From a virus, in the IMG/VR virus record IMGVR_UViG_3300009702_000054, positions 1-35,850 of that record: a DNA stretch of 35,850 nt; one strand, 5' to 3'. Made by a program: the position numbers and the translations under genes. The notes under the pieces are model-generated. The model was given only the letters and a program-made list of their open reading frames with translations. It made no database searches and had not been told where the DNA came from. Positions 1,440 through 33,008 of the stretch are shown here, piece by piece. The first letter of the stretch is position 1. Every line of letters starts with the position of its first letter.

Positions 1440-1639
1440 ACGCCGCGCAGGACGAACTCACGACCCTCCGGGCACGCTGCAACCGCCTCGAGATCGAGCG
1501 CGCCGACGCCGAGCGCCGGGCCGTCCGCGCCGAGGAGCGCGCAGAGCGGCTGCGCAAGCTCTACGTCGAGGCGATGGCCGCCCTCGACCGTTACCGCGAC
1601 ACGCCCACCGTGCCGCGCGAGCTCGTAGCCGAACCGTGA
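1436..1639 (+). CDS. small coiled-coil protein, unknown function
   Basis: A 67-aa protein starting at an ATG that overlaps the previous stop (ATGA). Residues 5-50 are almost entirely Ala, Arg, Glu and Leu with heptad-like spacing, predicting one long coiled coil. An upstream in-frame GTG at 1220 would give a much longer, low-complexity protein over the preceding gene, so the 1436 start is preferred. No family recognised. Confidence 0.55.
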   Translation: MNAAQDELTTLRARCNRLEIERADAERRAVRAEERAERLRKLYVEAMAALDRYRDTPTVPRELVAEP

Positions 1640-2211
1640 CCGCGCTCCACGACATCATCCTCGCCGACCCGCCCTGGCACTTCGGGGCGTGGTCGGGCGA
1701 CCGTGGCTCGCGCACCGCGGAGAGCTTCTACCCGACGATGACCGTCGCGGAGATCTGCGCGCTCGACCCCTTCCTGCACCAGCACACCGCGAGTCGCGCG
1801 GCGCTGTTCCTGTGGGTGCCGTGCTCCGCCACGCCCGAGGGCCTGCGGGTGATCAGCGCCTGGGGGTTCCAGTACAAGACGATCGCGTTCGTGTGGGTGA
1901 AGCTCCGCCGCCGGCCGGATCCGGACAACCCGCTCCTCTTGCACTTCGGCATGGGCCACTACACCCGCGCCGGGGCCGAGCTATGTCTCCTCGGTACCCG
2001 CGGGCAACTCCCGCGCGGCGCGCACAACGTCCACCAGGTGATCCTCGCGCCACCGCGCGAGCACTCCCGCAAGCCCGACCAACAGTACGAGCGCATCGAG
2101 GCGCTCTACCCCGGCCGGCGCTACCTTGAACTGTTCGCCCGTCACCGCCGACCCGGGTGGTCGGCGTGGGGAGACGAGGCGCCGGAAACACCCGCGGAGA
2201 TGAGCGCATGA
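1636..2211 (+). CDS. MT-A70 family DNA N6-adenine methyltransferase
   Basis: A 191-aa protein with the DPPW catalytic motif at residues 11-14, near the N-terminus as in MT-A70 enzymes, and the conserved FLWVP, FVWVK and GHYTRAGAE segments further on. Family members transfer methyl from S-adenosylmethionine to the N6 of adenine. In phages this usually protects DNA from restriction or marks phage DNA. The GTG start overlaps the previous stop. Length and motif order are complete, with no visible damage, in contrast to the Dam-type gene downstream. Target sequence unknown. Confidence 0.88.
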   Translation: MTALHDIILADPPWHFGAWSGDRGSRTAESFYPTMTVAEICALDPFLHQHTASRAALFLWVPCSATPEGLRVISAWGFQYKTIAFVWVKLRRRPDPDNPLLLHFGMGHYTRAGAELCLLGTRGQLPRGAHNVHQVILAPPREHSRKPDQQYERIEALYPGRRYLELFARHRRPGWSAWGDEAPETPAEMSA

Positions 2212-3194
2212 GCACCAACACCAAGATCGGCTGGACGGACGCCACCTGGAACCCCACCACGGGCTGCACAAAGGTCTCGCAGGGCTGCAAGCACTGCTAC
2301 GCCGAGCGCGAGTGGAAACGGCTGGCCGCCAACCCGCGCGGAGGCGTGTACCAGGGCCGCGAGTTCACAGACGTGCGCTGCCACCCGGAGCGGTTAGATC
2401 AGCCCCTCAAGTGGCGCAAGCCGAGGCGCGTGTTCGTCAACAGCATGTCCGACCTATTCCACGAGAACGTGCCGGATGAGTTCATTGACCAGGTGTTCGC
2501 CGTGATGGCACTGGCCCCGCCGCATATCTTCCAAGTACTTACGAAGCGGCCTCGCCGCATGTGGGAGTACATGATTGGTCAGCACGATATCGATGGCCTC
2601 GATGACGTGACGCGCGTCGAATGCATTCGGTTTGCCGCTCAAGATTACACCTGCACCCCCGACGAGGATGTGCGCTGGCCGCCCCCTAACATCCACCTCG
2701 GCGTGTCCTGCGAGGACCAGGCGAGCGCGAACGAGCGAATCCCGCTGCTGCTCAAGACACCCGCCGCGGTGCGCTGGGTGAGCCTGGAGCCGCTGCTCGG
2801 ACCGGTCGACATTCGGCGGTGGATCACTGACGCCGCCACCGAAACGGCGCAACGAGGCGACCCGCTCGCCGCGACGCTGATGCGCCAGTCGGTAGCGGAG
2901 GGATCTGGATGGATGGCGCCGACCCTGGACTGGTTCGTGGTCGGCGGCGAGTCCGGCCCGAAGGCGCGGCCGTGCTGTGTGGAGTGGATACGCGACGTTA
3001 TCGACCAGTGTCACGAGGCCTGGGTGCCCGTGTTCGTCAAGCAGCTCGGCGCCCGGCCGGTGCGTTGGGTGCAGGCGCCGAGCGCGGATGGATACGGAGA
3101 TTACGGACCTGAAGACGTAAAGCTCAGCAACCGCGCCGGATCCGACCCGTCCGAGTGGCCCGAGGATCTAAGGGTGCAGGAGTATCCAGCATGA
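2208..3194 (+). CDS. Gp37/Gp68 family protein (DUF5131), radical-SAM-like
   Basis: A 328-aa protein of the phage Gp37/Gp68 (DUF5131) family. The N-terminus holds the hallmark IGWTDATWNPTTGC, then GCKHCYAE, a Cys-X6-Cys-X2-Cys cluster resembling an iron-sulphur site. Further family blocks are VFVNSMSDLFHE, VLTKRP and FVVGGESGPKARP. The ATG at 2208 overlaps the methylase stop. The reaction of this family is not established; a radical-SAM-like DNA or protein modification is an inference from the cysteine pattern. It sits between a DNA methylase and small Cys-rich proteins, which fits DNA modification or protection. Confidence 0.85.
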   Translation: MSTNTKIGWTDATWNPTTGCTKVSQGCKHCYAEREWKRLAANPRGGVYQGREFTDVRCHPERLDQPLKWRKPRRVFVNSMSDLFHENVPDEFIDQVFAVMALAPPHIFQVLTKRPRRMWEYMIGQHDIDGLDDVTRVECIRFAAQDYTCTPDEDVRWPPPNIHLGVSCEDQASANERIPLLLKTPAAVRWVSLEPLLGPVDIRRWITDAATETAQRGDPLAATLMRQSVAEGSGWMAPTLDWFVVGGESGPKARPCCVEWIRDVIDQCHEAWVPVFVKQLGARPVRWVQAPSADGYGDYGPEDVKLSNRAGSDPSEWPEDLRVQEYPA

Positions 3195-6574: not shown

Positions 6575-6604
6575 TTTTCAAGGAATGATGCCCTAACCCT
6601 CCGC

Positions 6605-6650
<46 letters not shown>

Positions 6651-28478: not shown

Positions 28479-29080
28479 ACCGGCACCCCGATCCGCCGCC
28501 GCAACAGTGCCTCGACGGCCTGATTCTGTGCGGTTTCCCGTGAAACGCCTTCCGCCTCCAGCCTCGCCGCGCGCTCCTCGTATTCCTCAAGCGCGTCCGC
28601 CAGGCGATCGCTCGGGCTCGGCTTGCGGCGTCCGAGGGCATTGGCGCCGGGCATCAGCCGTTGGCGTAGCTTCCGCATCCGGTCCAGATAGGCACTACGG
28701 GTCTCGTCGGGCTTGCGGCGCCAATGCGGGTGTCCTTCGATGCACGCATCCACGTCACGGTCACGCCAGTTGCGGCCATGACGGTATCGATCCGGATGGG
28801 CGATGATCTCCGCCAGTTCCGCGGCGCCGGCGGCGTCCTGCGCGCGACGCTCGGCGATCATGTGCACCGAGCACCATTTGACCGGGTGCTTGCCGTAGCC
28901 GCTATCGCTCCACACCCCCGGCAACGGGCACCGCATCCCGTTCGCCTCGTAGGCGCAGGGCGTATACGTGGCAATGGAGGCCGACCCGCGCGGATTCGCG
29001 GTGCCGCATTCCGGGCATTCCGGCTTGGTGCGCGCGAACCAGGTGCCGCATTCGGCGCATTTAAGCCGCGGCTCCCTCAC
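28475..29080 (-). CDS. zinc-ribbon protein of the replication region, unknown
   Basis: A 201-aa protein starting at GTG 29080, which overlaps the previous stop. Cysteines C8, C11, C22 and C25 form a rubredoxin-like zinc ribbon (KCAECGTWF, CPECGTANP). A second Cys/His cluster follows (around CPLPGVW and WCSVHM), then helical segments with Arg and Glu. Not recognised. Its place right after the replication protein suggests a helicase-loader or primase-like accessory, but this is only position. Confidence 0.6.
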   Translation of the reverse strand: MREPRLKCAECGTWFARTKPECPECGTANPRGSASIATYTPCAYEANGMRCPLPGVWSDSGYGKHPVKWCSVHMIAERRAQDAAGAAELAEIIAHPDRYRHGRNWRDRDVDACIEGHPHWRRKPDETRSAYLDRMRKLRQRLMPGANALGRRKPSPSDRLADALEEYEERAARLEAEGVSRETAQNQAVEALLRRRIGVPV

Positions 29081-29505
29081 TGGCCCAACTCCCCCAGGTA
29101 CTGCTCGCACTTGGTGGCGTTGAACAAGGTGATCGGGCGCAAGAATTGCTCCTGGAATTCATCGGACTCGCACTGGCGCGCCTTCACGGTCACGATCGCG
29201 CGTAGCTGCTGCACCGTGATGCCGTCCGCGAGGCGAGCGCGGATTAGTTTCAGGTTCGCCTCGACGGGTCGATACCCCCGCTTGCCCGGCCGCTTCGAGT
29301 TCAGGTGATCGAGCACCTCGCGGGCCTCCGCGTCGTGCGCGCGCGCCACCTCCTCGGCCACAATCTTGCGGATCCCGGACTTCACCCGCGCCGGCGCCTT
29401 CGGCCACCAGGCCCGGAACCGGGCGATGATCTGCTCATCGCTCCGTTCGGGCGCCGGCGCGGCCGCGTGCGGCATTTGGACAACGTTGGTCTTCATTTCC
29501 TGCAA
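29077..29505 (-). CDS. phage replication protein with Phg_2220_C-type C-terminal domain
   Basis: A 142-aa protein. Residues 63-139 show the conserved C-terminal domain of phage replication initiators (Phg_2220_C): VLDHLNSKR, YRPVEANLKLIRARL, and FLRPITLFNATKCEQYL. In related phages this domain sits at the end of a replisome organiser; here the N-terminal part is only a short helical segment with no winged HTH visible. The TTG at 29505 has a strong GAGGTGAT ribosome site, whereas the ATG at 29496 has none at good distance. Likely role: recruiting host replication proteins. Confidence 0.72.
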   Translation of the reverse strand: MQEMKTNVVQMPHAAAPAPERSDEQIIARFRAWWPKAPARVKSGIRKIVAEEVARAHDAEAREVLDHLNSKRPGKRGYRPVEANLKLIRARLADGITVQQLRAIVTVKARQCESDEFQEQFLRPITLFNATKCEQYLGELGQ

Positions 29506-30070: not shown

Positions 30071-30111
30071 AAAAAACGCGCCGCCCGGTAGGAGAAAACC
30101 CGGGCGGCGCG
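30071..30111 (-). terminator. intrinsic terminator after the cro-like gene and tRNA
   Basis: A 12-bp perfect stem (CGCGCCGCCCGG at 30077-30088 and its complement at 30100-30111) with an 11-base loop, followed on the minus strand by six T (30076-30071). It ends leftward transcription that has passed the cro-like gene and tRNA. It also stands in front of all replication and late genes. Confidence 0.85.
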
Positions 30112-30148: not shown

Positions 30149-30223
30149 TGGTAGCGGGAGCGGGACTCGAACCCGCAACCTGCGGGTTATGGGCCCGCCG
30201 CGCTGCCATTGCGCCATCCCGCA
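30149..30223 (-). tRNA. tRNA-Met (CAU), initiator-like
   Basis: A 75-base tRNA on the minus strand: acceptor TGCGGGA/TCCCGCT, D-arm GCGC/GCGC with a 7-base loop, anticodon arm GCGGG-CCCATAA-CCCGC, T-arm GCGGG-TTCGAGT-CCCGC, and encoded CCA. Anticodon CAT. The first acceptor pair is a T-T mismatch and the anticodon stem ends in three G-C pairs; both are hallmarks of initiator tRNAs. The 11-24 pair is C-G, as in elongators, and position 33 is C instead of T. It starts five bases after the cro-like stop. tRNA-Ile with modified CAU is the other option. Confidence 0.88.
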
Positions 30224-30228
30224 TCGGT

Positions 30229-30471
30229 TCAGGCCTCCGCCGAGGCCGCTTGTGGCGCCGCTCCGGCCGACGCCGGCGGCGGGTAAATGTCAGGGCGAAG
30301 CTCGTGGCACGTCACCGCGCCGTTGGTGGCGGCTTCGATGGCGAGGCAGCGGGCGGGGGGCGCAGTTTTCTTGCGCAACCAGAGGTGCACCGCCTGTGGG
30401 GTTACACCCACGTCCCGGGCCAGCGCGACTTGACCGCCGGCGATTTCAACCGCACGTTGCAAGGCATCCAT
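30229..30471 (-). CDS. Cro-like / YdaS-type repressor
   Basis: An 80-aa protein starting MDALQRAVEIAGGQVALARDVGV, followed by TPQAVHLWLRKKTAPP, the helix-turn-helix of the YdaS/Cro class, and a short tail. It lies divergent to cI, the position of cro in lambda, and should bind the same operators to stop cI synthesis. The ATG at 30471 is only six or seven bases after the predicted -10 box, so the mRNA is probably leaderless. Starts further upstream (30507) lie inside the operators. Confidence 0.8.
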   Translation of the reverse strand: MDALQRAVEIAGGQVALARDVGVTPQAVHLWLRKKTAPPARCLAIEAATNGAVTCHELRPDIYPPPASAGAAPQAASAEA

Positions 30472-30477
30472 GCGCTT

Positions 30478-30507
30478 AATCAAGCACAGCTTTACCCTAA
30501 ATGTCAA
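30478..30507 (-). promoter_or_regulatory. PR-like promoter for the cro-like gene
   Basis: On the minus strand, TTGACA at 30507-30502 and TTGATT at 30483-30478 (18-base spacing). Operators at 30482-30492 and 30506-30516 overlap the -10 and -35 boxes. The arrangement closely copies the early promoter at 34150-34178. Confidence 0.6.
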
Positions 30508-30559
30508 GCAGTACTTGTCTTCATTTCCCTCCGGTCCGCGTATCGTTCAAGCAGTGCTT
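30482..30559. promoter_or_regulatory. three repressor operators in the cI-cro region
   Basis: Three sites with consensus AAGC-N3-GCTT: AAGCACAGCTT at 30482-30492, AAGCAGTACTT at 30506-30516 (one mismatch) and AAGCAGTGCTT at 30549-30559, the last inside a perfect 15-bp palindrome (30547-30561). Centres are 24 and 43 bases apart. The third lies at the start of cI, so it may govern cI itself. The same motif recurs at the early promoter 3.6 kb away. Confidence 0.75.
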
Positions 30560-30571
30560 GAGGCCCAGACA

Positions 30572-31243
30572 GTGCGTGAGAAGCAAAAACAACGGCTTAT
30601 CACGGCCATCCGCGGCAGTGGCGTCACCCAGGCGCACATCGCCGATCTGTGCGGCGTCACGCCCCAAGCCGTCGCGGGATGGCTCAAGACTGGAAGCTTC
30701 GACAAAACGCACCTACCGACGATTTCGCAAGCCACGGGGGTCCGCACGGACTGGCTCCTGACCGGGCAAGGCCCCATGAAAACCCCGGAGTTGACGACTG
30801 CGCCACAATCCGCCCGCCGGATTCCGGTTATCAGTACCGTTCAGGCCGCCGATCCGGTGGGCGCCATCAATGCGTACACCGAGGGAAACGAATACGAGAC
30901 GATCACCGTGGACGCCGATCTCGCCGAAACATTGGGGCCGCACACCTTTGCGCTACGCGTCGAGGGTGAGAGCATGGGGCCTGAGTTTCGGTCCGGCGAC
31001 ACCGTGCTGGTTGATCCCGACGCCACAGTCCGACCCGGTGACATCGTGGTGGCCAAAATGGCCGCAGACGAGACCGCTACACTGAGAAAGTACCGGTCAC
31101 GCGGCAAGGATGCCGATGGTCGCCCGATCTTCGAACTGGTCCCGCTCAACGACGACTATCCAACGCTGATGGTCAACGCGGATAACCCCGGGGCAATCAT
31201 CGGGCCTGTGGTCGAGCACCGGCGGAACCTGCGGCGACGATGA
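30572..31243 (+). CDS. cI: CI-type repressor, HTH plus S24/LexA-like peptidase
   Basis: A 223-aa lysogeny repressor. The N-terminal HTH lies at about 17-40 (GVTQAHIADLCGVTPQAVAGW). After a linker, the S24 self-cleavage domain holds Ser134 (EGESMGPEF) and Lys173 (ATLRKY). The expected cleavage site is in ISTVQAADPVG: the bond is Ala92-Ala93, where many phage repressors have Ala-Gly. The GTG at 30572 has GAGG nine bases upstream; the earlier GTG at 30554 lies inside an operator without a ribosome site. DNA damage and RecA should trigger cleavage and induction. Confidence 0.9.
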   Translation: MREKQKQRLITAIRGSGVTQAHIADLCGVTPQAVAGWLKTGSFDKTHLPTISQATGVRTDWLLTGQGPMKTPELTTAPQSARRIPVISTVQAADPVGAINAYTEGNEYETITVDADLAETLGPHTFALRVEGESMGPEFRSGDTVLVDPDATVRPGDIVVAKMAADETATLRKYRSRGKDADGRPIFELVPLNDDYPTLMVNADNPGAIIGPVVEHRRNLRRR

Positions 31244-31685: not shown

Positions 31686-31716
31686 TTCAGCGTTCCGGAC
31701 GGTGAGGGATCGGGCG

Positions 31717-32466
31717 ATGGCGGCCGGCGGCATATTTCGATTTAAGATCTCCAAGTTCACGCCGGATACGCTCCCGATGGACCGCTTGGCCGCCTACCTG
31801 GCGGACCTCTCAATCCTGATGGGGAGCCCCGAGCATGTTCACCTCGTCGGGATCGAAAAAGGAAGCGCGGAGCCGCTGGCTCTCGTCGACGATCCGGCGA
31901 TCCCGAAGGTGCGTGCACATGTTGAAGCGGTGCGCACGGGCGACGCCAACCCGGAGGCGCTCCGCGCCTACGAGCGCATCGACCAACACCTCGCCGAAGA
32001 CGACGCCGACGGGAACATCTCGGAGGACGGTGCGATCGTTCTCGAATTCCCGGGGAAGAATCGCCAACCTCAAGAGTCGATCAGCACCTTCCTTCAGGAG
32101 TGCTCGCTGGAAGGGGTTCCGGTTCAGGTTGGAGGCAGCGACACGGCCGAAAGAGCGCATGTCCACCTGCAGGACGAGAAGGCACGATGGGTCTGCCGAA
32201 CCACACGGGAAATCGCGTTGCGGCTCGCGCCGTACATGTTCAGCCAACCGATCAGGGTCCACGGTGACGCTCGGTGGGAGCGCCTCGACGACGGGGAGTG
32301 GAAGCTCAGATACTTCTGGATCAGAGAGTTCGAACGTCTGGAGACCGTCCCCATGTCCGTGGCGGTGGCCGAGCTGCGGGAGGCCTACCTGAGAAGCGGT
32401 TGGACAGAGATTAGCGACCCCGTCGCGGAGATCCTGCGGCACCGACAAGGCGGCGATCCTTCATGA
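31717..32466 (+). CDS. uncharacterised protein coupled to a PIN nuclease (possible antitoxin)
   Basis: A 249-aa protein. It opens with IFRFKISKFTPDTLPMDRLAAYLADLS, then a long acidic helical part, an isolated IVLEFPGKNR strand, and a beta-rich C-terminal half (VPVQVGGSDTAERAHVHLQ, IRVHGDARWERLDDGEWKL). No HTH is evident. The ATG at 31717 has GAGG eight bases before it and is preferred over GTG 31702. Its stop overlaps the start of the PIN gene (ATGA), the usual coupling of antitoxin and toxin, though it is far larger than common VapB antitoxins. It could sense a signal as well as neutralise. I cannot name the family. Confidence 0.6.
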   Translation: MAAGGIFRFKISKFTPDTLPMDRLAAYLADLSILMGSPEHVHLVGIEKGSAEPLALVDDPAIPKVRAHVEAVRTGDANPEALRAYERIDQHLAEDDADGNISEDGAIVLEFPGKNRQPQESISTFLQECSLEGVPVQVGGSDTAERAHVHLQDEKARWVCRTTREIALRLAPYMFSQPIRVHGDARWERLDDGEWKLRYFWIREFERLETVPMSVAVAELREAYLRSGWTEISDPVAEILRHRQGGDPS

Positions 32467-33008
32467 TCGTCTTCGATGCCAACGCACTGATTTGCCTGCT
32501 CGACGAGGACGCCAACGCCCCGCTCGATCCTGCGACGAAGCAACCCGTACCGCGATTCAGGGATCGGATCCAGTTTCTCCTGGGAAGGCTCGAGGAAGAA
32601 CGACAGCACGCCATCGTGCCAACACCCGCGCTCGCGGAATTGCTGGTCAGGGCCGACGCCGCCCGTGCGGACTTCATGAGGATCTTGTCAACCAAGGCCC
32701 CTTTCAGAATCGCCGACTTCGACCGTCGGGCAGCCCTTGAGCTCTCGATCATCGAGGCTCAGGCGATCGAGGACGGCGACAAGAGAGCGGGACTCACTGC
32801 CACCTGGGTCAAGATCAAGTTCGACCGGCAGATCCTTGCGATTGCCCGGATAGCTCAGGCCGATGAGATCCTCTCGGACGACTCGGACCTGCAAGCCCTC
32901 GCGAAGCCGTACGGGATTTCGGTGATCTCGACCGCGGACCTCCCGTTGCCGCCAGAAGATCCGCAGGTCGCTCTCGATCTGGGCGAGCCGCCCCTGCCCG
33001 AAAGCTAG
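32463..33008 (+). CDS. PIN-domain ribonuclease (toxin-like)
   Basis: A 181-aa protein with a PIN domain: MIVFDANAL (D5), ALAELL (E59), KFDRQILAIA (D121) and LSDDSDL (D139/D140/D142), all four acidic positions present, so it should be an active metal-dependent RNase. The C-terminal 25 residues are Pro/Leu/Asp-rich. VapC toxins usually have about 130 aa; this one has an insert after strand 1 (residues 12-35) and a tail. Its start overlaps the partner gene. Targets unknown; tRNA is common for PIN toxins. Confidence 0.8.
   Translation: MIVFDANALICLLDEDANAPLDPATKQPVPRFRDRIQFLLGRLEEERQHAIVPTPALAELLVRADAARADFMRILSTKAPFRIADFDRRAALELSIIEAQAIEDGDKRAGLTATWVKIKFDRQILAIARIAQADEILSDDSDLQALAKPYGISVISTADLPLPPEDPQVALDLGEPPLPES

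Follow-up and report, generated by a model that had tools for sequence, protein, structure and literature searches.

An initiator-type tRNA-Met with C33 behind the cro gene of a temperate phage, and recurrent anticodon-loop changes in viral initiator tRNAs

Introduction

U33 is nearly universal in bacterial tRNAs. The initiator tRNA enters the P site directly, and G2-C71, C3-G70, G4-C69 and A73 are acceptor-stem marks of the bacterial tRNA-fMet. The vertebrate cytosolic initiator tRNA carries C33, together with A54 and A60.

Formylation depends primarily on an unpaired position 1:72, with A11:U24 as a secondary determinant, and the free anticodon loop of tRNA-fMet is unusual in its C32-A38 pair and in the position of U33 (PMC4611024). 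The anticodon arm is where tRNA-fMet is cut by VapC toxins from Shigella and Salmonella (PMC5408214). Changes in the loops of phage tRNAs have been proposed by van den Berg et al. 2023 as an escape from host tRNases; the same work reports that phages generally avoid coding the VapC-targeted tRNA-fMet (PMC10264068).

Here we describe a tRNA gene in the virus record IMGVR_UViG_3300009702_000054, of which positions 1 to 35,850 (the window) were analysed. The phage is temperate: it encodes an integrase, a portal protein and a terminase, and it has a lambda-like switch. A preliminary description made from the letters alone had noticed an initiator-like tRNA-Met with C33 in this record.

Results

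Exactly one tRNA, a tRNA-Met(CAT) on the minus strand, was detected in the window by ARAGORN. The Rfam family RF00005 matches positions 30152-30223 with 62.8 bits (gathering score 29, E=1.7e-11). The gene is thus real, as had been described, and a chance tRNA-like fold was ruled out by these two calls. Its sequence, 5' to 3', is UGCGGGA UG GCGC AAUGGCA GCGC G GCGGG CCCAUAA CCCGC AGGUU GCGGG UUCGAGU CCCGC UCCCGCU A CCA.

The comparison with gammaproteobacterial tRNA-fMet shows a largely shared set of features: the anticodon CAU, a U-U mismatch without a Watson-Crick pair at 1:72, the retained pairs G2-C71, C3-G70 and G4-C69, an anticodon stem with GGG:CCC at 29-31:39-41, A37/A38, and A73 followed by a CCA that is encoded in the gene. 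Unlike tRNA-fMet, which has U33 and A11:U24, the window tRNA has C33 in the loop CCCAUAA and C11:G24, lacking the A11:U24 that is otherwise a criterion of tRNA-fMet; it is also phage-coded and adjoins cro. The U1-U72 mismatch is ordinary among gammaproteobacterial hosts, where 7 of the 10 unique GGG:CCC initiators share it, so that C33 and C11:G24 are the only unusual features. Among unique viral initiators, 25 of 168 have C11:G24 (17/84 with C33, 8/84 with T33), compared with 0/10 unique host initiators. A coupling of C33 to C11:G24 was considered and discarded, the difference between 17/84 and 8/84 being a weak tendency only.

To classify the tRNA, simple profiles were built from tRNAs of Pseudomonadota genomes, with 17 unique host initiators on one side and 13 unique CAT tRNAs of other kinds (elongator Met and Ile2-type) on the other, and the candidate was aligned and scored by log-odds. 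The window tRNA scored +28.5 bits toward initiator over other CAT tRNAs. In the same test, host initiators scored 88 to 107 bits and other host CAT tRNAs −133 to −33, all of the latter below −32, while unique viral tRNAs with GGG:CCC and C33 had a median of 45.5 bits, every one above zero. The D stem of the window tRNA is among the regions that scored most strongly against the initiator profile. The closest host initiator was 79% identical to it, the closest of the other host CAT tRNAs 63%. Because of the profile score, the closer identity to host initiators, the unpaired 1:72 and the GGG:CCC stem, assignment to the initiator type, in a somewhat diverged form, is well supported by these sequence comparisons. 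A tRNA-Ile2 (lysidine) or elongator tRNA-Met mistaken for an initiator could account for the elongator-type C11:G24, which does not exclude the initiator class because A11:U24 is only a secondary feature; neither a paired 1:72, nor the lack of GGG:CCC, nor the profile match expected of an Ile2 or elongator tRNA was found, and we rejected this identity on the profile score as very improbable. The T-T at 1-72, the three G-C pairs at the base of the anticodon stem, the elongator-type 11-24 pair and the initiator character itself had all been named in the preliminary description and are borne out here; the outcome that it had named as refuting, an Ile2 or clear elongator tRNA, did not occur in the profile classification.

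The gene begins 5 nt past the stop codon of a Cro/YdaS-like repressor gene on the same strand (Table 1). A strong intrinsic terminator lies about 40 nt past the tRNA, and its fold was matched by 0/200 shuffles. This arrangement, with cro just ahead, the terminator behind and cI on the opposite strand, predicts that the tRNA is made together with Cro on a short early lytic transcript and is not expressed in the lysogen. A conserved pairing of cro and tRNA was not found among TerL relatives and Cro relatives, which are without a tRNA at the corresponding spot. The placement behind cro therefore looks like a recent gain. In one other phage with a C33 initiator (L045), a relative of Cro is encoded upstream of the tRNA at a distance of about 800 bases.

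Table 1 Features of the cro-tRNA region in the window. The table indicates the feature, its coordinates, the strand and the supporting evidence.
Feature	Coordinates	Strand	Evidence
Next downstream gene, replication-initiation-like protein (Phg_2220_C)	29077..29505	-	profile matches
Intrinsic terminator 3' of the tRNA, 12-bp G+C-rich stem, U6 tail	30071..30111	-	-29.9 kcal/mol, z -3.47
Initiator-type tRNA-Met(CAU) gene: C33, C11:G24, U1-U72 mismatch, GGG:CCC anticodon stem, encoded CCA	30149..30223	-	ARAGORN, Rfam, alignment, profile
Cro/YdaS-like repressor gene, likely ATG start 30471	30229..30507	-	Pfam YdaS_toxin 3.7e-26, P22_Cro 6e-9; phrog_35
CI-like repressor carrying an S24 peptidase domain, transcribed divergently from cro	30470..31243	+	Pfam Peptidase_S24 1.4e-19; phrog_4 2.5e-40
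Three operator-like repeats TCAAGCA..CTT(G) between cro and cI, at 30480, 30504, 30547	30480..30560		sequence

Elsewhere in the window, an attP-like tRNA 3' end with a long variable arm (...GGTTCGAATCCTCTCACCCCGACCA) lies at 6580-6650, directly 3' of the integrase gene, and the integration target is probably a tRNA-Leu. Since this end adjoins the integrase and the initiator-type gene is complete, the latter was ruled out as an integration-site remnant. Near the lysogeny operon, the segment 33350-34028 encodes a HicA-like toxin, preceded by its HicB-like partner. In the early region, genes for an MT-A70 family methyltransferase and, next to it on the downstream side, a DUF5131 protein occupy 1636-3194.

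We then searched for the C33 initiator arm as GGGCCCATAACCCNNAGG. This arm, with the loop CCCATAA, was present in at least 119 viral contigs, and it makes up about 8% of a sample that was not selected on the loop. Among the matches listed, the backbones that carry C33 are very different from one another: grouping them at 95% identity gives 96 clusters, and at 85% still 45, and a few clusters contain both C33 and T33 initiators. The same arm was found in 0/399 Pseudomonadota genomes, and any C33 CAT tRNA, as sought by a second pattern, in 0/299, while a closely similar T33 pattern matched 58/60 host genomes; this host sample covers one phylum, and some of the viral contigs may have hosts in other phyla. 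Isolate phages and E. coli, when searched for C33 with short probes, which are insensitive, gave no match. The C33 initiator is also present in isolates, namely the Pseudomonas phages D3 and BUCT566 and the Janthinobacterium phage Donnerlittchen, and the D3 tRNA gene recurs at 98.7-100% identity in seven Pseudomonas records. The initiator-type tRNA-Met of D3 and its relatives (BUCT566 was examined) shares GGG:CCC, CCCATAA with C33 and the unpaired 1:72 with the window tRNA; that of D3 differs in its retained A11:U24, its different genome location and the other tRNAs nearby. Judged by these matches, C33 is a recurrent phage variant that occurs in many unrelated phages and is absent from the sampled bacterial genomes.

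No other tRNA lies within 3 kb of the initiator tRNA in 80 of 113 C33 loci and 67 of 106 T33 loci, many of these loci being shorter than 3 kb. In the viral loci L002-L240, C33 is also present in 26 of 640 non-CAT tRNAs (~4%) and G33 in 6. Loss of U33 in the non-initiator tRNAs of these loci is apparently commoner in phages with a C33 initiator.

C33 is one of several changes in the loop. A loop-free pattern, GGGNNCATNNCCCNNAGGTCG, which leaves positions 32, 33, 37 and 38 unconstrained, was run on viruses and hosts; the viral sample consists of the first 80 matches in database order, which is not random, and 71 of them were confirmed by ARAGORN. The common loop CTCATAA was found in 46 of these 71 tRNAs, and the other 25 (35%) were altered, including CTCATAT (8), CCCATAA (5) and TTCATAC (3). 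The host run matched 109 of 200 genomes, and the tRNA-like ones among the matches listed were all CTCATAA; the few remaining host matches were unlike initiator loops. By position, changes in the 71 viral tRNAs affected 38 in 18, 32 in 10, 33 in 6 and 37 in 5 cases, and positions 21, 53, 58 and 61 in 2-3 of the same tRNAs. Variation at positions 8 and 14 was disregarded as a possible artefact of uncertain tRNA starts. In this sample, variability is clearly concentrated in the anticodon loop as a whole, and position 33 alone is only moderately above background (6/71).

Two unannotated initiator-type tRNAs were encountered in isolate phages, one with the loop TTCATAC between terL and nrdJ of Pseudomonas phage PaMx74 (L354) and one with CTCATAA in Nocardia phage NTR1 (L356).

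Discussion

The C33 of this tRNA had previously been likened to that of vertebrate initiators. C33 in CCCAUAA is indeed there, and GGG:CCC is likewise common to both; the likeness is nevertheless superficial, since the window tRNA has U54 and U60 and not A54 and A60, and its unpaired 1:72 is bacterial-type. To judge from these positions it is convergence only, and the better comparison is with other phages, in which C33 is found repeatedly, as are further changes of the loop. In having a loop base that is absent from host tRNAs of the same type, the window tRNA resembles the phage tRNAs of van den Berg et al., with the reservation that its C33 was compared to Pseudomonadota, a sample that may miss the actual host. 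In contrast to the avoidance of tRNA-fMet described there, many phages in our census encode an initiator-type tRNA, with a changed loop in a third of the sample.

We give an even chance to a reading in which the tRNA is a supplementary phage initiator, made from the early cro unit, with a loop change that the P site tolerates and that may confer resistance to anticodon nucleases. In such a scheme, cro and tRNA would form a short immediate-early transcript, stopped by the strong terminator, with the tRNA as its second half, from which it would probably be released by RNase P and 3' processing. MetRS would charge it via CAU, and formylation would be expected from the unpaired 1:72 and the retained G2-C71, C3-G70 and G4-C69. 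The counterpoint is the C11:G24 found in place of A11:U24, the pair that acts as a secondary determinant of formylation (PMC4611024). Through its GGG:CCC stem the tRNA would enter the P site and supplement the host initiator pool during lytic growth. There, C33 would cost little; it should be cheap for an initiator because the free loop is unusual and P-site entry is direct. The loop changes may then keep the phage tRNA working while nucleases such as VapC cut the anticodon loop of the host tRNA-fMet. We found nothing in the accessible literature on the importance of U33 to any initiator-cutting nuclease. Nuclease escape at a tolerated cost is the explanation that we favour, but in it the resistance is inferred from the changed loop. 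Extended to many phage lineages, it would mean that initiator loops were remodelled, by C33 or at 32, 37 and 38, to survive initiation-blocking nucleases, here wired into the immediate-early transcript of Cro; this wider proposal is tentative, and we think it rather unlikely.

Relaxed constraint could suffice as well and forms with nuclease escape the two serious explanations. An extra or barely needed initiator would let U33 drift, since the geometry of A-site decoding is dispensable to it, and no nuclease would be involved. The scatter of the variation over 32, 33, 37 and 38 in differing combinations is consistent with this, C11:G24 would be a further loss, and the presence of C33 in about 4% of other viral tRNAs means that a part of C33 may indeed reflect relaxed constraint. 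Against a general decay, other invariant positions (21, 53, 58, 61, T-loop) are changed in 3-4% of the tRNAs versus 25% for position 38, although ARAGORN prefers tRNAs with a normal T loop and this selection could contribute to the T-loop conservation. We regard drift of this kind as a possibility of some weight, if on the whole somewhat improbable.

The remaining explanations fare worse. The distance of 5 nt to the cro stop and the strong terminator right after the tRNA would also fit an element that serves mainly RNA processing or transcription, in which RNase P cleavage ends the cro mRNA and decoding is secondary. Such an element would not need the unpaired 1:72, GGG:CCC, A73 and CCA, all of which are nevertheless retained, and tRNAs of this kind are located elsewhere in other phages, for example between terL and a ribonucleotide reductase gene; we therefore hold this to be quite unlikely.

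Behind cI, at 31702-33008, the window encodes a 254-aa protein (phrog_19868) and a 181-aa PIN-like protein (phrog_21691) with a 4-bp overlap, an order also seen in Pseudomonas phage Ostro (L394), and the two genes are possibly a toxin-antitoxin or exclusion module. It may be speculated that the PIN-like nuclease of this cI operon (32463-33008) cuts the host initiator but spares the C33 tRNA, which would be transcribed from the opposite, lytic promoter. The position of the gene behind a conserved partner, the shared order of CI, partner and nuclease in Ostro and the 26% identity of the Ostro nuclease to the window protein are in line with such self-protection. On the other hand, support for a PIN domain is weak (Pfam E=0.29 for the window protein and 7.8e-4 for that of Ostro, both below the cut-off), the structure model of the PIN-like protein is too poor for use, no close relatives of the protein were found, and Ostro has no listed tRNA beside cro. 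C33 is also not associated with PF01850 nucleases: one scoring over the cut-off was found in 0/50 C33 phages and 0/50 T33 phages, so that there is no sign of C33 going together with a PIN nuclease of the phage. Self-protection of this kind is highly improbable.

A further suggestion of the preliminary description, that the tRNA favours leaderless mRNAs and the many GTG and TTG starts of this genome, did not find support. Since the anticodon CAU is identical to that of the host initiator, there are no grounds for such a preference, and the many GTG and TTG starts arise mainly from the choice of the first possible start by the ORF lister; most recognisable genes start with ATG (judged by eye, uncounted).

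Phage initiators that repeatedly replace U33 are a natural experiment on what is required of an initiator loop. They also bear on the debated question of why phages carry tRNAs, as codon supply cannot account for a lone initiator tRNA whose CAU anticodon is the same as that of the host. The loop pattern predicts which host nucleases matter, and D3 of Pseudomonas aeruginosa offers a ready test system.
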